Below are positions 2,378 to 64,000 of a stretch of DNA of 64,000 nt, piece after piece; the first letter of the stretch is position 1; every line of letters starts with the position of its first letter. Both the position numbers and the translations under genes were made by a program. Below the pieces are notes generated by a model. That model searched no databases. It saw nothing but the letters and a program-made list of their open reading frames with translations, and was not told the DNA's origin. Origin of the DNA: Sisyra terminalis. Its lineage: Eukaryota > Arthropoda > Insecta > Neuroptera > Sisyridae. Location: NCBI GenBank assembly GCA_958496175.1, contig OY292276.1, forward strand, positions 51,969,080 through 52,033,079. Direction: 5' to 3'.

Positions 2378-3204
2378 GCTATTTTATCCTTAATATTTCA
2401 GTAATTCCATAAATTTTATTTACTTACCGAATTCTTTTATGGTTGTTTTATTTTATTTTTATAAAAATGATATTATAAACCCCTAAATTATATTAAAATT
2501 CTTGATCAATCGGTTAGCTACACTCTCAAGAAAAAAATTTTTGTTTTATATGTTATCTGTTTTTAAATCCATTGTAATATATTCGCGTTTTTTATTGGAA
2601 TAAATTTTGGAAGTGATAATCATGATATGTAATTAACACACTTCCAGTTATCCACGGGATTGTCATTTCGGTTTTCCCGTGGATCAAGCACTTACGTATT
2701 CGTGGATCAGAACCAATATGGTCCAATTTATTTGCGAATTAAAGTGAAACCAAAGTAGAAAATACAAAGTTACCAAATATAGACGTCCCTAAAAAGAGCA
2801 TGAGCCGATTTCATTGAATTTGCTGTGGATTTTGAATATATTTTCGTGAATAAATTTGACCATAATAGTTCTGATCCACGAGTATGTAAGTGCTTGATCC
2901 ACATGAAAACCGAAATGACAATCCCGTGGATAACTGGAAGTGTGTTAATTACATATCATGATTATCACTTCCAAAATTTATTCCCATCAAAAACTCGAAA
3001 CTAATACAAAGGATTTAAAAACATTTATCATATAAAACATTTTGTCTTCCTTAAAGTTTAGCTTACCGATTAATCCAGCATTTTAATTTGATTTAGGAGT
3101 TTATAATGTCATTTTTATAAAAAGAAAGTAAAATAACCATAAAAGAATTCGGTAAGTAAATGAAATTTATGGCATTACTGAAATGTTAAAAATAAAATTC
3201 TATT
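2378..3204. repeat. Long foldback (inverted-repeat) element
   Basis: The left arm (about 2381-2722) is matched by an imperfect reverse complement at about 2858-3201, leaving a spacer of about 135 bp. The arms share long blocks: the TTACCGAATTCTTTTATGG block near the outer ends, TTATCCACGGGATTGTCATT, and GACCATAATAGTTCTGATCC beside the spacer. The motif GTGGATCA recurs several times in direct and inverted form, and once just outside the left arm at 2366. No coding sequence is present. This is the layout of a non-autonomous foldback DNA element or long-TIR MITE. I found no convincing target-site duplication, so the superfamily is unknown. Confidence 0.85.
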
Positions 3205-7799: not shown

Positions 7800-8304
7800 A
7801 TAAAATAAAACACCTTTACGCGAAAAAAGATGAAATCAACTATTGTCTATACAAAGCTCATTTAAAATTTCTCAACACTATCCATCCATGTACAGTTGAG
7901 CCTATCATTAATGAAATCAACAAATTAAAATGGCCCGAAATAGAAAGAAAAAAGCTGAAATTACAACAAACAATAAATAAGATATTAAGATCAAAAAATA
8001 CTGAAAAAAACTTCAACTAACAACAATTATACCGAATCATGACAGATTATATAATTGCACTAATATTTAATTCACCAAAAAAGAACTTATCACATTAAAT
8101 AAAGGTCCAGAATTCAATTTACCGAAATTCCAAAATAACACTATATTACAAGATATACTTAAATCAAAATAAATCATTATAACACTTCCAGAACAAGACC
8201 TCCAGAATGAAGCATGATCTATCATAAAAAGAAGCTAAAAAAGTTTAAAAACAAATTTACATGAAACTATTAACAAAATTAAATTTTCATTCCATCAAAA
8301 CCAA

Positions 8305-8754
8305 TTGAACATTAACAATATAAAAGAAAAACAACAAAAAAATAACACTTATATCACAAAAGTCGATAAAGGAAAGATCATCGTAATCATTAGCCAGGAC
8401 AAATATACAAACAAAACGGGACAATTCATTAAAAAAAATAATATACTTCACATGAAAAAATATCCAACTCCGAACTTTTCCAAAACAGTATACAAGACCA
8501 TAAATGAAAGCAACTATCTATTTGAAAACGAATTTTCAAATAGAATCCTCAAACCAATAAAACCTCAAGCTCCAATACTTCATAGTTTACCCAAAATCCA
8601 TAAAATAAATATACCAATCCGACCGGTAATGGATTACAAACTTGCTCCTAGATATTGGTTAGCCAAAAAATTAGAACAACCCATCAAATCAGGCATTACA
8701 TTGAAAGAAAATTTTTCATTAAGAAACATATATGAATTTATGAATAATACTTAA
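8305..8754 (+). pseudogene. PLE reverse transcriptase, N-terminal part (broken)
   Basis: An open stretch of 149 codons. It contains a segment reading TKVDKGKIIVI, LHSLPKIHK followed by NIPIRPVMDYKLAP and then WLAKKLEQPI, which match the conserved early RT region of Penelope-like elements (consensus LPKIHKP..PIRPI). The frame stops at 8752-8754, and the next RT segment follows at 8782 in the same frame after the TAA and an intervening non-ATG stretch. Upstream sequence from about 7830 encodes further PLE-like residues (CLYKAHLKFLN) but is interrupted by stops. Not functional. Confidence 0.88.
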
Positions 8755-8781
8755 AACCTTAAACTACCACAGAACATCAAA

Positions 8782-9314
8782 ATGACATCACTTGACATTG
8801 TTAACTTATATACAAATGTCCCTATTGAAGAAACAACCAAAATTGTGGAATATAATCTAATGACATCAAAAATTTATAATTATATGCTAATCAACGAAAT
8901 AATGCACTTGTTAATCACAATATTACAAAAAACTATTTCACTTTCTACCAAAAATTTTATCACCAAAAGGAAGACTTGGCCATGGGTTCCCCTATATTAG
9001 GACTACTAGCTAATATTTACATGAATAACTTTGAAAATAAATATATTATGAACAATACCTACACAAATAAAATAATATATAATGGAAGATATGTAGACGA
9101 TATATTTATATTATTTAATGGAATTACTCGACAGATTGACAATATGGTATCTGATCTGAACAAAATTAACCCGAAAATAAAATTCACTTCAGAACACGAA
9201 CTAAAAGGAATAATCAGTTTTTTAGACACAACAATCACCAATGAAACTGGAAAGTTGTCATACAATATATACAGAAAACCAACAACAATGAACAAAACCA
9301 TCCATAAAACATAA
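8782..9314 (+). pseudogene. PLE reverse transcriptase, palm part with YVDD (frameshifted)
   Basis: The first part (8782-9000) begins MTSLDIVNLYTNVPIEE, the catalytic motif A region of PLE RTs with its Asp. A frameshift near 8976-9000 leads into MAMGSPILGLLANIYM (the motif B region) and then GRYVDDIFILF at about 9089-9121. The YxDD metal-binding box is intact. FTSEHELKGIISFLDTTI follows, matching the thumb-proximal region (consensus FLD). The catalytic Asp residues survive while the frame does not, which suggests decay after insertion. Confidence 0.9.
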
Positions 9315-9472
9315 TTTCACCCAAGAAACCAAAAAATTGCAGCTTAGAACAGTCTAGTGAATAGAGCGATCAAGTTCCCTCTTAGCACCGAAGCTCGCGA
9401 AAAAGAATTAAGATACTTAAACATATAGCCAATACTAACGGATACTACAGCTCAATCGGAGACAAAATAATA

Positions 9473-10008
9473 TTGAAATTTACTAAAAAACCCATGCTTC
9501 CAACTCTACCAAAAGAAAACAAAACATATATAAAATCAAAGTTCAATAATATATTTAGTTTTACAATCGCCAACTACCTAAAGAAAAATAACTTCAATAT
9601 TTCATTTTCAACAATCAACAATGTGATGAAAATTCTTAAACCATTGAAGAACAACCAAATTACAACGAAAAATAAAACCAGAATATATAAAATTAAATGT
9701 GGTTCCTGTGAAAAATTCTACATTGGCCAAACTGGTAGATCTTTCAGAACAAGATATAAGCAATAAGCACCCAAAAAACCTACCTCAACAACTACGTCAA
9801 ATTTTACAAAATACCTTTATAACGAAAATCATCAATGCTAACATTTCGAAACAAATTTTAATCCATTGTATATTTGCAAGAAAGAATCACATATGAACTC
9901 CTTAGAATAATATGAAATATACAAAGTCCACAAAGTAGATTCAAATAACATGCATAACGACAAATTATATAAAACAATCAACCTTTATGAAGTTTGTTTA
10001 CAACTGAC
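9473..10008 (+). pseudogene. PLE linker and GIY-YIG endonuclease (frameshifted)
   Basis: The frame 9473-9766 ends with RIYKIKCGSCEKFYIGQTGR, the GIY-YIG nuclease core (consensus GVYKI.C..C...YIGQTGR) with the neighbouring cysteines typical of PLEs. After a frameshift near 9766 the family's HL..NH..., ETNF and LE..EIY segments can be followed in changing frames to about 10008. The nuclease is predicted to nick target DNA for integration. This copy is dead. Confidence 0.85.
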
Positions 10009-10020
10009 AAAATAATCATT

Positions 10021-11532: not shown

Positions 11533-11790
11533 TATGTTATTGTGATGTATATTGTGTACTTCATATTAAGATAATTTAACAATTAGTAATAAATGTTTTG
11601 AAGGATTCTGTAATACATGTGTTTGTATGATTGTAGAAGCCTGATGAAGGTCTAATAAAAGACCGAAACGTGTCGCTAAATTAATAATTAGTACATGGAT
11701 CTACATCCTTTCATGTCCACTATCCTACTAAAAATAAATAAAATTATGTAAATTATGGACACAACCAATTTATCGTTAAAATACTTATGT
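11533..11790 (+). mobile_element. Hammerhead-bearing element, family 2, single arm (site D)
   Basis: This stretch matches the right half of the inverted-repeat element at 52714-53070. Shared blocks are TTATTGTGATGTATATTGTG (one change), the hammerhead core, GCTAAATTAATAATTAGTA, CCTACTAAAAAATAAATAA (near match) and GTAAATTATGGACACAACCA. About 75 bp of extra sequence separates the TTCATATTAAGA segment from the core. Only one arm is present, so this is either a truncated copy or a simpler form. No target-site duplication was identified. Confidence 0.75.
11629..11690 (+). ncRNA. Hammerhead-ribozyme-like motif, family 2 (site D)
   Basis: CTGATGA lies at 11641-11647, followed by one unpaired A, stem II GGTC/GACC closing an 8-nt loop, GAAA at 11665-11668, a minimal stem III, and GTC at 11672-11674 as the predicted cleavage triplet. 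The 3' strand of stem I starts GCT at 11675 and pairs with AGC at 11638-11640; an AATTA/TGATT pairing can extend it beyond an internal loop. This is the type I layout with a tiny stem III reported for PLE hammerheads. The extra A before stem II is atypical. Confidence 0.7.
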
Positions 11791-12205: not shown

Positions 12206-13004
12206 TTTATTATCCAACAATAAAGCTTTTTGATTTTTTTACAATGATGTCCTGATTTTATTCTGTTAATTATTTTATCCTTTCTGTGCTGTAATCTGAA
12301 GTGAACCATAGTCTTTAAGCCATCATACGATTTGTAATATATTAAGATTTGTTTGATAAATATTTCACTTCTTTGGGTATACTCTTCATGTCTTTGTACA
12401 TATATTGATCTTTTTTAGATTTTAAAATGGCAAATGAAGGTATAAACATGTTTCTTTTTAATTAATTTATCAACTCTCCAGTGACCCTCTTTGTGACCTG
12501 GTACCCATAATAGTTTTGGTGATAATACCAAATAAGTTTTTTTTTAAATTCAAATTCGATCATTTTCTTTTCTTCAACTGTTACCAACGAAGAATAGCAA
12601 AAAATTTAACCAATAAGAAGTTAAGGGAGGTAATAATACTAAATTTAGGGCAGCAAGTCAAAGAGCTGTCAAATAATTTTAATTTCTTTGGTGGATCAAC
12701 CAAATAGCCAAAACTGCCCAAGAACTGTTAACAAAGAAAATTCTGTCCTACAACACGATAATGCCAAACTGTTCTGCAGAGGAAAAGCTAATTAATTAAG
12801 GGGGAGGGGTGATATTGCCATAATAACTATAATCTTTCAAAGATTTTCCATGGGATTTCAATATTTTTCAATCATTACAACATTTACTCAGTGGCAAAAC
12901 AATTTAAAGTTTAGGTAATGTTCAAAGTAATTAATTGTTTCTACTTATTTGGAATTAAAAATTTGTATAGTAGATCTCAAATCAATGATACTATTGAGGC
13001 TAAT

Positions 13005-13287
13005 AGATGATAAAATTCAGATCTCAGCTTTTATTTCTCTAAATAAGAAGCCAACTCAGGTTATTTAAGATCGGTTTTTTATTTATTTAATATTTTTACT
13101 ATACTACGTTTCGTTAATAAATAAAATTTTATTTTTTTATTGCATTTAAATTGAAAATATTATTTTTGTGAATCAAGAAGCCTGATGAAGTTACGATACG
13201 TAACGAAATGTAGCTAATTGAATAGTAAAAATATTAAATAAAAAAAACCCATCTTAAACAACCTGAATTGTCTTTTTATTTAAAAAA
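13005..13287 (+). mobile_element. Hammerhead-bearing element, family 1 (site A)
   Basis: An insertion inside the mariner remnant, bounded by copies of ATTGAGGCTAAT at 12993-13004 and 13288-13299. The uninterrupted mariner copy at 62.1 kb has a single version (ATTGAGGCTGAT), so both ends and the target-site duplication are well supported (10-12 bp, depending on where the end is set). The element starts AGATGATAAAATTCAG and ends TTATTTAAAAAA. Inside, 13038-13114 and 13203-13285 are inverted repeats. The right arm has a complete hammerhead-like motif; the left arm keeps only its GAAAC/cleavage half on the minus strand (about 13101-13117). It encodes no protein. Confidence 0.85.
13173..13221 (+). 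ncRNA. Hammerhead-ribozyme-like motif, family 1 (site A)
   Basis: Stem I is TCAA-ga-AGC (13173-13181) pairing with GCT-aa-TTGA (13213-13221), with an internal loop where natural hammerheads make loop contacts. The core is CTGATGA (13182-13188), one unpaired A, stem II GTTAC/GTAAC with a 5-nt loop, then GAAA (13205-13208). The predicted cleavage triplet is GTA, after 13212. The residue after GAAA is T where the other copies have C, which would weaken the already minimal stem III. Confidence 0.75.
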
Positions 13288-13399
13288 ATTGAGGCTAATT
13301 ATATTATTGATTTAAACCCAAAAGTATTAACAAAATTTTGAGTTTTAATTGTTGTTTAAAAAAATGACATTACTTTCCGTGACACCCAATAGTTTTATT

Positions 13400-39545: not shown

Positions 39546-39766
39546 CAGTGGCGAAGCTAGGGAACCAAGGGCCCTGGGGCAAATTAAAAAAATGGGGCCC
39601 CACTGGTATGTAAACTGATCAGGTTTTGTGTATACAATATATAGGATATATTGCAGTCAAATTTATGCAGTATAATTTAATATAATAATATAAAAAAAAA
39701 ACATACCATAAACATAAATTTGAACAGAAGTTCAAACAAAAATATTCGTGACGTATTACTCAGATA

Positions 39767-39975
39767 CGTATTTCGATTGCCAAGCAAGCTTCCTCAGTGG
39801 TCATCAAGTAGTTTGGATCACTCCGTAACTGCTTTATAATGATTTCCGAAATAATTACGGATTGATCTCAATTTATAAATCGTGCCTTTCTCTTTTTGCG
39901 ATGTGTTTATGGAGGAGGGGGGTGTTCCCAAATTTCTTTACTTTCACTGAATCCTTCGTAAGCAACCCGAAAAGT
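39767..39975 (+). repeat. Inverted duplication, left arm
   Basis: This is the reverse complement of 40172-40385 with moderate divergence. In the plus direction it starts FRLP, continues SSSSLDHSVTAL and stops, duplicating the end of the transposase-like frame that the right arm has on the minus strand, and then duplicates about 140 bp downstream of that stop. Confidence 0.88.
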
Positions 39976-39989
39976 GCTGAATTCCGATA

Positions 39990-40180
39990 AAAAAAATCGA
40001 TAAAAAAAATCATGTGTGGCAGAACATGCACTGCAAACAGGGCATACATTTGCAAAAGCTAGACTTCTAAAAAGTATTCACCGCACAAACCGATTGGATG
40101 CACTCGAAAGCATAGAAATTGTTAAAAGAAAGGGAAAGGTACTAAATTGGGAAAATGGACCAATTCCAATTTCCAAATTC
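39990..40180 (+). pseudogene. PLE-like C-terminal fragment inside the hAT element
   Basis: The plus-strand frame reads AEHALQTGHTFAKARLL, then RTNRLDALESIEIVKRKGK and VLNWENGPI. It matches the segment that follows GIY-YIG in Penelope-like proteins (EH....H.....I.KI......R...LE..EI......LN). No RT or GIY-YIG core is present, so it is a small fragment, probably inserted or captured. The frame runs on into the right inverted arm. Confidence 0.7.
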
Positions 40181-40308
40181 GGGTTGCTTACGAAGGATTC
40201 GGTGAAAATAAAGAAAATTGAGAACACCCACCCCTCCATAACCACATCGCAAAAAAAGAAAGGCACGCCTTAAAAATTCAGGTCGATCCATGATTATTTT
40301 GTGAATCA

Positions 40309-40560
40309 TCACAAAGCAGTTACAGAGTGATCCAAACTACTTGAGGACGACTTAGGAAGATTGTTTGGCAATCGAAATACAAATGTATGGCAATATAAAT
40401 GTCGAGTTGAGCCCATATTATTTCTTAAATATTTTTTTATTATTTTTAATTTACTAAATGACCTTTCAGCTGCTGCAGAAGTGTCAGGAATTGTAAAGAA
40501 TAATAACATTGCTGTAAATACTTCCGTTAAGTCGCATTCTATTACTCGATATTTGTTCAT
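40309..40560 (-). pseudogene. hAT transposase C-terminal dimerisation region
   Basis: The minus-strand frame reads FFTIPDTSAAAERSFSKLK followed by IIKKYLRNNMG, the signature of the hAT dimerisation domain (P.TSA..ERSFS.LK.IK..LR..M...RL). The usual LxxL.LL segment is absent; the frame goes instead into FRLPNNLPKSSSSSLDHSV and a stop. This tail is duplicated in inverted form at 39767. Upstream catalytic regions are missing. Confidence 0.85.
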
Positions 40561-51340: not shown

Positions 51341-51367
51341 TGAACCATTTATACCACAAGGCAGGTT

Positions 51368-52122
51368 TTGGGGCCATATCTATGTTTGATATACGCATAT
51401 GATATGCCACAAGCACAACAGTACATGACAGCACAATATGCGGACAATATGGGATATTTAGTGTCCGAGAATACCTATCAGTGTGCTGAGGAAAGAATCC
51501 AGGAGAACCTGGAAAACACCAATAAATGGTGCAAAAAATGGCGAGTCATTATAAACCCACTGAAATCTATAGTGGTACCGTTTTCAATGAGACGGGAGCA
51601 CTATAGAGGATAAATTCAATTAAACGGGACGATTTTTCCCGTTCCACAAACAGTTCAGTATCTAGGGATTCGCCTGGATTCCAAACTAACGTGGAAATAC
51701 CACATTGATGAGTTGGTCACTAGATTGCCAGGAAAGCTCAAACCACTGAAGCAACTTTTAGTACATACTACACCACTTAACCATTGCACGAAATTTTTAA
51801 TACATAAAATGTTAATAAGACCGATATGGACGTACACATATGGTCTATGGGGGACAACCGTGAAAACATATATTCAAAAAATACAAATGCTACAAAATCG
51901 AATTTAAAGATTAATAACTAATGCTCCATGGTATGTAAAAGGTTCAGTGCTACATCAGGATTTACAAATCACGAGTACAAGATGACATTAGGGTTGTCTA
52001 TGTTCACCTGCACTCCAGCATGGAAGACCATGGAAACTCTCTTGTTAGGGAAGAAGGATCTAAACCAATGATTCAAAACAGAAGATTGAAAAGAAAAAGA
52101 TTAAAAGCCAATCTAAGCTAAT
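51368..52122 (+). pseudogene. LINE RT C-terminal half with mutated YADD
   Basis: The first frame has GPYLCLIYAYDMP, then QYADNMGYLVS in the catalytic-box position (YADN for YADD), and WCKKWRVIINPLKSIVVPFS, the thumb signature. A frameshift leads to VQYLGIRLDSKLTWKYHID, IHKMLIRPIWTYTYGLWG, and IQKIQMLQNRI followed by a stop. Beyond it LITNAPWYVKG and LHQDLQI are readable, and a shifted frame continues to a Lys/Arg-rich tail. It is non-functional. Confidence 0.88.
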
Positions 52123-52246
52123 GATGTATAAAAAATAACTAAACACTTTATATAAATCTATTTTTTTAAATAAGAAGACAATTCAGGTTATTTAAGATCT
52201 TTTTGTTTTTTATTTTTTATTTAATATTTTTATTATTCAATTAGCT

Positions 52247-52295
52247 ACGTTTCGTTACTAATCGTAACTTCCTCAGGCTTCTTGATTCACAAAAA
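52247..52295 (-). ncRNA. Hammerhead-like motif, family 1, left arm (site B)
   Basis: On the minus strand: TCAA-ga-AGC, CTGAGGA, an unpaired A, GTTAC/GTAAC stem II with loop GATTA, GAAA, CGTA, then GCT-aa-TTGA. All stem I and II pairs are kept. The core has G for U at the CUGAUGA position that is the most tolerant of change (N7 in the usual numbering). Confidence 0.75.
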
Positions 52296-52393
52296 TAAAA
52301 TATTTTTAATTTAAATTCAATAAATAAATTTATTGAAATTATTTATTCAATTTATTTATTGAATTTAAATTAAAAATATTTTATTTTTATGAA

Positions 52394-52442
52394 TCAAGAA
52401 GCCTGAGGAAGTTACGATTAGTAACGAAACGTAGCTAATTGA
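52394..52442 (+). ncRNA. Hammerhead-like motif, family 1, right arm (site B)
   Basis: The mirror of the left-arm motif on the plus strand: stem I 52394-52402 with 52434-52442, CTGAGGA 52403-52409, unpaired A, stem II 52411-52415 with 52421-52425, GAAA 52426-52429, predicted cleavage after GTA at 52433. Confidence 0.75.
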
Positions 52443-52774
52443 ATAATAAAAATATTAAATAAAAAATAAAAAACAAAAAGATCTTAAATAACCTAAATTT
52501 TCTTCTTATTTAAAAAATATAAAATCTGAGATCTGAATTTTATCATCTATTATAAATCTAATTCTTAAAAAAATAGCTTGTCCGGGACAATTACTGAACA
52601 GTCACCGAATAAATGTGTCATATTAATTAGGCACTTTAGGTGCTTACTATACAATGTGAGCTGAACAGTGAGTCACTACGTGACAAAAGTGGACAATATT
52701 AAAAAAAAAAAAACAATTTTATTTATTTTTACTAGGAAAGTGGGCTTAAGGGATGTAAATCCATATACTAATTA

Positions 52775-52825
52775 TTAATTTAGCAACGTTTCGGTCCTTT
52801 ATTTGACCTTCATCAGGCTTCTCAA
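52775..52825 (-). ncRNA. Hammerhead-like motif, family 2, left arm (site C)
   Basis: On the minus strand: TTGA-ga-AGC, CTGATGA, an unpaired A, stem II GGTC/GACC, GAAA, CGTT, then GCT-aaa-TTAA. The predicted cleavage triplet is GTT, an accepted NUH. This is the best match to the CUGAUGA/GAAA core among the family 2 copies. Confidence 0.75.
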
Positions 52826-52907
52826 TTTGAAGTACACAATATACATCTCAATAACAGCAATTTTTTTTTCCCTAGCTGTTATTGAGATGTATGTTGTGTA
52901 CTTCAAA

Positions 52908-52958
52908 TTAAGAAGGCTGATGAAGGTCAAATAAAGAACCGAAACGTCGCTAAATTAA
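52908..52958 (+). ncRNA. Hammerhead-like motif, family 2, right arm (site C)
   Basis: TTAA-ga-AGG, CTGATGA (52917-52923), an unpaired A, stem II GGT/ACC with a larger loop, GAAA (52941-52944), CGTC, GCT-aaa-TTAA. The cleavage triplet is GTC. The base before CTGATGA is G in place of C, breaking the stem I pair next to the cleavage site. Confidence 0.7.
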
Positions 52959-53540
52959 TAATTAGTATATGGATTTACAACCTTTAAGTCCACATTCCTA
53001 CTAAAAAATAAATAATATTATGTAAATTATGAACACAACCAATTTCTCGATGAGTAATAATTATGTTTTTCACCTTATAAAAATGAGTATTGAGTAAAAC
53101 TACTTATGTTTTAAAAAAAATATTCATTTTTTTCATATAGCAATCCGAAATCAAATATCAATCAAAACACAATGATTTACATAATCTTCCTTAATTATCT
53201 AGTAACATCTGCATAATGTTTGCACTTAAAAATTCCAAATGCTTGCAAAAATCTTGATTAATAATTCCAACTGAATAATTAAAAAGATTTATTATTGAAA
53301 AATCAAAAAAAATTTATATTCATAAATCGAAGTACAATAAACGTTCTAAAGTTTGCCGTCATTGATACAGATAAGAGGATAACAACAATTAAAATCACAA
53401 AAGATCTTAGAAGAAAAGTTTTCAAATTCTTCAATTAGAGAAAATGATTGCAAACCGAAAGTTCGGGCGTTTCTTTAAGGACCTTATTTCAAATTCAGTG
53501 ATTAAAGAAGCCAGAGAATTGGATCAAGACATGGACGTAG

Positions 53541-61584: not shown

Positions 61585-62215
61585 GAAGAGTTGTCAAATA
61601 ATCCTAATCAATTATGGTCGATCAACCAAATACCCAAAAGTATCCAAGAATTTTGACAGAGAAAATTCTATGCTGTCATATAATAATGCAAGACTTTTCT
61701 GCAAATAAAGGCCCTGGGAAAACACTAATAAATATTGTCGTCTAAAGCATTGTTTCCTAACCTGTGGTCCGCGGACCCCTGGGGGTCCACGTGCCTATGT
61801 TTGGAGGGCCGCGATAATTTAATGAAATATAATACTGTTCGAAAATTACACCTTTTTTCACTCAGGGGTCCTTGGCATTATGCTTGATTTCCTTGGGGGT
61901 CCGCGGATGAAAAAGGTTAAGAACCGCTGGTCTAAAGTTATATCATTGATTTTCTATTTATTTCATTTGTTACAACATTTACTAAGTGGTTAAAAAATCA
62001 AAAACTTAAGTGATGTTCAAAATATAATTTTTTGATATTTTCCTTAGTAATCACTTGATTTTTACTAATTTTGCATTAAAAATTTGCACAGTAGATGTCA
62101 AAACGTTACTATTGAGGCTGATTATATCATTGATTTATAAATCAATAGTTATAACAAAATTTGATGTATTAATTGTATATTTAAAAATACGAAAGTACTT
62201 TCCGGTACACCTTAT
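61585..62215 (+). mobile_element. Mariner-like transposon remnant, copy b
   Basis: Homologous to 12630-13390. Readable motifs are ENSMLSYNNARLFCK (catalytic HDNAR degraded to YNNAR), LQHLLSG and NLSDVQNIIF, and the terminal TTTCCGGTACACCTTATA resembling a mariner end. It is interrupted by a hAT MITE at 61748-61929. It keeps the single, unoccupied version of the site where element A sits in copy a (about 62113-62124). Confidence 0.75.
61748..61929. mobile_element. hAT MITE, 182 bp
   Basis: Flanked by GTCTAAAG at 61740-61747 and 61930-61937 (8 bp, hAT). The ends are CATTGTTTCCTAACCT and (reverse complement) CAGCGGTTCTTAACCT. GGTCCGCGGACCCC near the left end and the inverted ATCCGCGGACCCCC near the right end form GC-rich subterminal repeats of the common CAGTGGTTCTTAACCT class. 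Confidence 0.93.
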
Positions 62216-64000
62216 ATATTATGTATAGTATATAAATTAGAGTATAGTTGACGTAAAGTGAGATACAATAAAACTTTTAAGAATTTAAAAACGAAATCGT
62301 ACGCGTATCTATTATTGTCTTTGTAAGAAAGATTTATAGCTTTCCACTTGAAAAAAAGACAAAATCTCGAAAAATCGAAAGCATAATATTTCATGAAATT
62401 ATTGGCTATAAATTAGAGGGCGAGGTTGAATCGAATGATAACGATTTTACGACATTAAACGCTGAGATTCACTTTCCCTTTTCAGACTGGTCATGAGTCA
62501 AGTTTTATTTCCCGTGATAGCCCAAAAAGCTCAATAAACTTTGTGAACGGAAAAAAAAACTAATGAACTTTGGCAACGACATAACATAGCTAATTTCATT
62601 GTTGAATCTTTTTTTGTTCGATTTCAATGAATCCCTGACCGATTATTTTAATTGATTACTACACAAGTTTCAATTGTACCCCAATCGGTAATAATCAGTT
62701 TTAAAATTCAATGATATGAGTCCGTGAAAATATTGGTTCTTTTCGATAGATGTGGAGCTTTCATAAAAAACTGTAGTGTCACAAACATTTCATTATTATT
62801 CTCCTCGTGCCAATAAAATTGGAACATAAAAAATTTTGATTTTCAAGTAGAAGACTAGCAAAGCGGAATTGATATCGAGTGTATTATCTTCGTAACCTCA
62901 AACTATTCGCAAGATTGTTAGTAGTATATAACGTGAAAAAATCATCGCATAATATGAAATGCGCATAAAATAACAATCCATTTTCAATTGATGATATTGA
63001 CGTATGTAAGAAAACTCAACAATAGTCACCTCCAAGTAAACAATAAAAAAATAAGTCGGTACCCAAAAAGAATTGGTAAGTTTTTTTGATATATTATTTG
63101 TCAAATAAATATAAATTTATTGATGTTTTTCACTGTCACCTTCATCACCAGATATTCGGGGGAAAAAACCGTTAAGTTAATTAAAATAACCCGTCTTATC
63201 ATAAATTCCTTCTTTCACCTTTAATAATTTTTTCAATTTTTTGAATAAAACATGATATGCCTAACGCAAAACGGAAATCAGAAATATTTATAGCTTTCTA
63301 CCTATACAACTGAAATGACCTTAAATATTATAATAATAAAATCGGTTCAAAGTTCACCAAACTTGCGATATAGCAAGTAAAAAAATCAACTTATAATAAA
63401 ACTTTCACTCTTCACAGATAGCTACAAATGTCTTCTACTGAACGATGATAAAAAATGGATAAATAAAAATCACACTGACACTTCAATTTCCGTATTACCC
63501 AATAATCTAGCAATAAATTCTCTTAAATCAACACAGAAAAAATAAGGTTTCCATCATAAATCATAAATTGAAATCTTACAATAACGTTTTTTTTTTCTGT
63601 AGTTTTTTTTTCAAATTGATTCCTTCGTAAATATTTGCGGCAAACTTTTGTAATTGTTGTGAATTCAGATGGTTTATTTAGCGGTCGGGCTGGGGAATGA
63701 GATTGTTGAGGATATAATAAAAGATATGTTAAGAAAAGGGTACGAGATAGTCGCGCAACTTTAGGGACATTGAACTTGATATGTGTGTTACAAAGTTACA
63801 ACTTTAAGGATAATTCAAGGGTACAATGCAGAAGAACCATTAATTAGCGGAGTCTTGTTGGCTTAATTGCTCTTTTTAAGGGATGGTTGCCAGATTTATA
63901 CATTAAACATGCGACCTTAGCCAATTAATTTGGACTGATAAATTTATTTTGGAGGATAATGCATCAGTTATAATTCGCCTTGAATTTTACGTTTTTGTAA
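62216..64000. other. AT-rich non-coding DNA to window end
   Basis: Nothing recognised. Short frames at 62212-62394 and 62898-63104 (both minus) have no motif. Confidence 0.4.

Follow-up and report, generated by a model that had tools for sequence, protein, structure and literature searches.

Head-to-head hammerhead insertions in the genome of Sisyra terminalis as probable twin-primed copies of one, usually spliced, RNA

Introduction

What might explain why two short, non-coding units with hammerhead-like RNA folds, each enclosed by its own short duplication, lie in different surroundings of the same genome, each built of two related arms that point in opposite directions? The units occur in a stretch of 64,000 nucleotides from Sisyra terminalis (contig OY292276.1, positions 51,969,080 to 52,033,079), hereafter the window, and their construction leads to the Penelope-type jumping genes (PLEs), whose mechanism of movement is poorly understood.

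Bdelloid Penelope has head-to-head pLTRs, an optional 31-bp tail on one of them and duplications of 8-9 bp, and antisense-template self-priming was proposed in 2013 for its head-to-head copies together with their intron retention (PMC3846280). In Anolis Poseidon (PAc), both target strands are cut and extended; in vitro work from 2024 showed that reverse transcription begins at two adjacent internal sites, the tail being the stretch between them; no difference in start site between the strands was reported, and the enzyme is predicted to be a dimer (PMC11167929). A second body of work concerns ribozymes: thousands of minimal hammerheads are dispersed in genomes and PLEs have been suggested as helpers of retrozymes, according to PMC7761336, which cites Cervera and de la Pena 2014 and Lunse et al. 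2017 for a tie between minimal type I animal hammerheads and PLEs; tandem retrozymes are described in PMC7229834. Here we argue that the two units belong to a family, A, of what are probably (at roughly 0.78) non-autonomous PLE-type retroelements, formed when twin target-primed reverse transcription sets out from two neighbouring start sites of a single RNA, and that a second family of the window, B, behaves alike.

Results

Element 1 (13005-13287, +), a family A copy, consists of a tailed left arm placed head to head with a short right arm, and the target-site duplication ATTGAGGCTAAT flanks it at 12993-13004 and 13288-13299. The left arm (13006-13116, -) covers positions 81-195 of the family template and is truncated within the hammerhead, which is why the element has a single hammerhead core (13182-13208, +, CTGATGA..GAAA). 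This core lies in the right arm (13127-13287, +), which makes up the short end and whose alignment continues into the duplication as far as 13296. The duplicated sequence is present once at the paralogous site near 62.1 kb: in the comparison with a mariner-like paralogue (61951-62240) the target site, ATTGAGGCTGAT, stands in single copy, and it is therefore the empty site of element 1, as the first-pass annotation had proposed. Element 2 (52161-52550, -), also of family A, is 390 bp long and has long arms on both sides, namely a short arm (52159-52328, -, template 10-169, hammerhead core 52250-52276, -) and a tailed arm (52349-52547, +, template 8-195, hammerhead core 52403-52429, +). Its duplication occupies 52551-52560 on the tail side and 52151-52160 on the short-end side, the flanks reading TAGATTTATA/TATAAATCTA in that order. 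Both elements, with the ends and the 10-12 bp duplications assigned to them in the first-pass annotation, were thus recovered in the sequence, and its broader claim of a discrete non-coding mobile unit, with unrelated hosts, target duplications and common outer ends, was borne out; the contrary observations that it had named mostly failed to turn up. The annotation had also named the 3' UTR of a LINE as the host of element 2, to which an adjacent LINE-type reverse transcriptase-like remnant at 51344-51904 lends weak support (RVT_1, E 6e-5, below the Pfam cut-off). The units, of about 0.27-0.4 kb, are non-coding, and an open reading frame (ORF) with PLE reverse transcriptase and GIY-YIG, of the sort present elsewhere in the genome, is absent from them; they are therefore not autonomous PLEs, and the claim made here is of a non-autonomous derivative.

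The genome analysed comprises 376,648,809 bases (376.6 Mb) in 11 contigs. The hammerhead-core pattern is matched exactly at 3102 places in it, 1525 on the forward and 1577 on the reverse strand, and nowhere when the pattern is read backwards as a control. The pattern takes in at least two families, A, with both window elements, and B. When element 1 was used as the genome query, 89 matches came from the best 40 of 1610 candidates, many places being hit on both strands. RNA from 13160-13250 is predicted to adopt a hammerhead-like fold (z -4.29), none of 200 shuffles being equally stable. Rfam gave no family at gathering score on the window, and at low thresholds across 52100-53100 it returned chiefly microRNA hairpins and no hammerhead family. 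Core pattern and predicted fold together point to a hammerhead motif in the pLTR-like arms.

Among 100 listed places of the 3102, 24 neighbouring core pairs lie less than 2 kb apart, and 23 of these are in -+ order, one is ++ and none is +-. This order bears on whether the units are non-LTR retrozymes, in which hammerhead self-cleavage would yield a circular RNA and reverse transcription would turn the circle into head-to-tail multimers. The units are indeed short, AT-rich and non-coding with a type I-like hammerhead core, and PLEs are named as likely helpers of such elements in PMC7761336. However, head-to-tail neighbours make up just 1/24, for which we rejected the circle as the main route, and the copies stop at two sites downstream of the ribozyme and not at the expected cleavage site, so that we regard a retrozyme origin as very unlikely.

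With nhmmer and the approximately 195-nt family A template we located 131 arm matches, and assembled 53 head-to-head copies. Duplicate loci were excluded (L001, which is the window, L020, L043, L047, L056, L066, L068 and L071), as were arms without a partner, both at the five loci that gave just one arm (L022, L024, L058, L064 and L069) and as lone arms in L013, L015, L061 and L067; the 53 copies were thus chosen as pairs. The 40 loci L001-L020 and L022-L041 were retrieved by the element 1 query and so tend towards the shape of element 1. An arm was called short when its alignment ended before template position 185 and tailed when it ended at or after it.

Each paired insertion contains, head to head, two copies of one RNA of about 200 nt, with their 3' sides facing the flanking DNA. 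A 20-copy alignment has recurrent outer ends and a variable centre: read 5' to 3' on the template, an arm runs from a variable 5' point to either a short stop, mostly at about 160-170, or a tailed stop at about 195. One short and one tailed arm are combined in 46/53 copies (binomial p 2e-8 against a half), the seven exceptions being three tail/tail and four short/short copies; eight short arms end before template 155 and may be decayed. The short/tail combination also holds in 12/14 copies of the subset retrieved by the hammerhead core alone, and in 9/11 intron-bearing copies with ends inside the stretch, where the ends of L104 and L113 are unclear and from which L105 and L109 are left out as they extend past the stretch. 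Family B, which behaves like family A in the same window, is short/tail in 4/4 pairs with both arms shown; its head-to-head pair in the window (52714-53050) has a short arm at 52714-52855 (-) and a tailed arm at 52878-53050 (+). The recurrence of the outer ends thus agrees with the first-pass annotation, but the short end is ragged, and neither end is an inverted copy of the other, since an extra tail of about 30 nt is present on one side. Neither terminal inverted repeats at both extremities nor a duplication of fixed length was found, the tail lying at one end in 46/53, and a cut-and-paste DNA transposon or MITE was rejected on its non-inverted ends, the varying length of the duplication and the loss of introns. 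Classic-TPRT copies of LINEs or SINEs, with a single orientation and a 3' tail repeat, are likewise not what was found, the window elements and the 53 copies, the latter chosen as pairs, being head-to-head. Two further observations concern related sequences. Arms of a related but different hammerhead family (e.g. GAAAGTCACGATACGTGACGAAACGTTGCTGAATT) occur near family A at L094:1016-1084 and L114:452-564, and the family A pair at L067:1400-2140 seems to come from a template with a second, upstream hammerhead-like unit (CTCAAGAAGTTGCGAAAGTGGCGAAACG), both units being present in both arms.

Shared flanks of at least 8 exact bp occur in 32/53 copies, against 3.7% of mismatched flank pairs, and 21/53 have no shared 8-bp flank; the duplication that borders the majority of insertions measures about 8-15 bp and varies in length. 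Instead of direct duplications, L010 has palindromic flanks of 145 bp, L059 of 26 bp and L061 of about 99 bp, and two of the three are tailed on both arms. These three loci speak for a second strand made by folding back, whether the 3' end of the cDNA snaps back on itself or an antisense template primes itself, as put forward for bdelloid Penelope in PMC3846280. Palindromic centres are frequent, as fold-back would have it, and a mirrored flank is what snap-back is expected to leave when it runs into the flank; the three loci are possibly snap-back insertions, and they weigh against twin priming, which does not predict palindromic flanks. On the other hand, snap-back would duplicate one outer end, whereas 46/53 copies have two different ends, and it does not account for the direct shared flanks in 32/53. 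Self-priming on an antisense template was rejected because the GT-AG introns described below were removed in the sense direction. Fold-back is mostly refuted for the majority of copies, and as a general explanation we consider it improbable.

Is the palindrome itself the unit that moves, as the first-pass annotation supposed when it described an inverted-repeat unit? A palindrome copied whole, in the manner of a MITE-like foldback element or an inverted-repeat SINE, would account for the recurrent outer ends, and among 36 copies with informative centre junctions, 14 have another copy within two positions, the junctions of L008 and L009 coinciding exactly by template coordinates. Some of these 14 may have been copied as units. 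The other 22 have no such neighbour, however, and 5' truncation among the 46 short/tail copies affects either side (the tailed arm only in 12, the short arm only in 8, both in 16, with both near full length in 10). The outer ends are not inverted repeats, the two arms within a copy have variants in common, and precise intron loss from the sense strand argues against copying at the DNA level. Copying of the palindrome as a unit was therefore rejected for most copies; a few may have arisen in this way, and it is very improbable as the general route; the arms are instead two copies of one RNA.

The variants are informative in this respect. Compared at eight variable template sites, the two arms within one copy match in 254 of 291 cases (0.873), against a permuted mean of 0.710 (sd 0.021) and a maximum of 0.787 in 5000 shuffles of right arms among copies. 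Overall identity is less telling, at 0.928 between own arms and 0.911 to other copies, and the own arm is the top match in only 3/53. Some copies carry TTTTTTATAG joined to AAGCCTGATGAAG, most carry GTGAATCAAG joined to AAGCCTGATGAAG, and L051 has both joints about 200 nt apart, from which we predicted a splice donor, GAATCAAG followed by GT. A search of the genome for GAATCAAG followed by GTA then gave 64 matches, with 0 for the control. An intron of 203-204 nt with GT..AG limits, ending in ATAG before AAGCC, is present in 4/4 distinct arms first read (L091, both arms of L092, and L094; L093 is the L092 locus again and is not counted), and it sits just 5' of the hammerhead core.

Both arms of an insertion share their splice state. 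Of the 53 copies, 22 could be called, 20 as spliced in both arms, two as unspliced in both and none as mixed. At 23 loci selected for the intron donor, the partner arm is readable in 13 and intron sequence is present in 13/13 of these partners, the intron in the partner arm of L097 being represented just by its last bases before the acceptor; the remaining 10, among them L094 and L114, lack such a partner and do not enter the splice tally. Splice state is thus determinable in 35 copies overall, and none is mixed. Shared variants and shared splice state together argue that a sense RNA, usually spliced, served as template twice in each insertion. The second exon contributes the inner part of stem I (AGC/GCU) and the first exon the outer stem I strand (UCAA, which pairs with UUGA in the fold), so that splicing completes the predicted hammerhead, which may be relevant to cleavage.

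Related sequences offer further views of the template. A single family B arm at 11536-11775 (+) retains, by eye, an intron-like segment of 66 nt (11571-11636); it ends in TGTAG before AAGCC, begins with AT and not GT at the donor, and matches the family A intron in its position with respect to the hammerhead. The longer family A copies L051, L099, L104 and L111 have additional upstream stretches in common (e.g. GGGTAGAGTGTG), which probably represent the promoter, or some 5' portion, of the source gene.

Are there PLEs in the genome that could provide the machinery? A PLE-type reverse transcriptase query found 241 proteins; among the 120 listed, RVT_1 or PF26215 is frequent, GIY-YIG is found in two, and wherever the name includes an organism it is an insect. 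For PLE reverse transcriptase in the genome, the best 150 of 1129 candidates were scored, nine of them within an 839-residue open frame. The frame at L073 has RVT_1 above the Pfam cut-off, the sole Pfam domain to reach it, weak PDB matches to RNA-directed DNA polymerase and telomerase, and a GIY-YIG motif by eye. The GIY-YIG model PF01541 has one match only across the genome although the motif is visible in L073, and the model therefore misses these PLE endonucleases. Within the window, a Penelope-like ORF of type P1, with reverse transcriptase and part of GIY-YIG, survives as a broken relic (8047-10012, +; 77-83% amino acid identity in the main pieces), and there is a head-to-head P2-type pLTR relic (39681-40386, with arms at 39681-39870, -, and 40278-40386, +). 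Two P1 matches of identical score, at C1:19807920 (+) and 19812230 (-), lie 4.3 kb apart in +- order as against the usual -+.

P2 elements that still carry coding sequence are built like the short units. Two full P2 copies meet head to head at L078, where their centre is 97% palindromic across 1618 bp and has a hammerhead core in each pLTR. We examined six P2 pairs (frames of 563-854 residues), the left side of the sixth continuing into another copy. In all five readable pairs, one outer end aligns to reference position 58-64 and the opposite end to 99-102, which leaves a tail of about 40 nt at one end only (5/5); their shared flanks are 11, 12, 12, 14 and 14 bp, which may include a few element bases, against 4-8 in 20 mismatched pairings. 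Coding PLEs of this genome therefore insert with the asymmetry of families A and B. Unlike P2, the sole readable P1 head-to-head pair (L073) has, by eye, equal ends on both arms. The anatomy of the window elements is that of the inverted pLTRs of PLEs, a kind already known, and PLEs so built are present in the same genome; the suggestion in the first-pass annotation that the units belong to no standard named family falls short in this respect. Concerning P2 pLTRs, copies at L085 and at 39617-39870 of the window are missing about 70-100 nt that the L078 pLTR has on the downstream side of its hammerhead, which suggests a further intron, with its start by eye near GAG followed by GTATGA.

Among 13 PLE end or centre regions and six reverse transcriptase loci, no coding PLE with a family A or B pLTR was found. 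Family B matched none of these 19 loci and family A matched L089 only, where a head-to-head A pair stands beside a P2 remnant and is taken as an insertion there. At L049 and L057, too, family A and B pairs have PLE coding remnants no further than about 1 kb away; the family B pair at L057 is flanked on both sides by a 12-bp string (by eye) and is therefore taken as an insertion. The diverged PLE coding remnant near it (L057:551-1182) has 36-60% amino acid identity to P1. A third PLE type is seen at L082 and L090, where the frame crosses a hammerhead-like motif with an internal ATG (CTGAAG ATG CGA CCC...), and at L082 one copy extends into the ORF, while the inverted arm opposite it ends soon past the motif.

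Discussion

How would one RNA give rise to two arms with different ends? In the twin-priming mechanism that we favour, a source RNA with the hammerhead and the 203-204-nt intron is usually spliced ahead of copying, as the sequences show. A PLE reverse transcriptase/GIY-YIG endonuclease would make a staggered cut in the target, and the 3' end of each target strand would prime on the same RNA, one at an inner and one at an outer start site. The two cDNAs would extend toward the 5' end of the RNA and then be joined, leaving the variable palindromic centre. The hammerhead would probably trim the RNA or work in the RNP.

The two start sites are usually shared out between the strands and not independently drawn, which suggests that one RNA is engaged by two subunits at a spacing of about 30-45 nt. 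A dimer, as predicted for PAc (PMC11167929), would fit such an arrangement, although the in vitro work in the same study, with no strand difference in start site, is a point against shared-out sites. A common RNA stem at the two start sites was looked for, and the folds were weak (z -0.73, -1.89 and -1.17) and unconvincing. More generally, PLEs might integrate by symmetric twin TPRT, in which a single sense RNA is bound by a dimer whose two active sites are spaced by about 30-45 nt, and either strand of the staggered cut is extended by a subunit of its own; the tail would then be the spacing of the start sites, inverted pLTRs would be the normal product and not a by-product, and splicing may license ribozyme folding via the outer stem I strand. 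We put the odds of this wider model at about even.

The hairpin insertions bear on the mechanism of PLE integration, and their many short copies are a natural data set for separating antisense self-priming from models with two start sites. Three features discriminate: the template is sense and usually spliced, both arms of an insertion draw on one type of template, and the two start sites are usually represented once each. Some of the minimal hammerheads scattered through animal genomes may have originated as such insertions, which also provide a candidate for an intron-split ribozyme.

Twin priming itself is familiar from L1, in which two target-primed cDNAs of one RNA give an inverted structure with duplications, the second primer annealing at an internal, variable site. 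Unlike in L1, the primers of families A and B appear to use neighbouring sites, both close to the 3' end of the portion that is copied. Among the papers listed from an open-licence collection, no title or displayed abstract states the model presented here.

Compared with other hammerhead-bearing elements, families A and B resemble metazoan non-LTR retrozymes, as these are presented in PMC7229834 and PMC7761336, in being small, AT-rich and non-coding, with a type I hammerhead and suspected PLE help, but they are head to head and end away from the expected cleavage site. With the dispersed minimal type I hammerheads, as cited in PMC7761336, they share many cores with little or no helix III in non-coding DNA, whereas here the cores sit inside defined insertions that have outer ends and duplications and contain the template twice. 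The closest likeness is to PLEs with inverted pLTRs. Bdelloid Penelope (PMC3846280) has the same head-to-head arrangement, a tail of about 31 bp on one copy and short duplications, and PAc has a pLTR hammerhead and two adjacent internal starts of reverse transcription (PMC11167929). Unlike either, families A and B are abundant, non-coding, pLTR-like pairs without an ORF, their arms are mostly copies of a spliced RNA, and the outer stem I strand of their hammerhead lies in an upstream exon.
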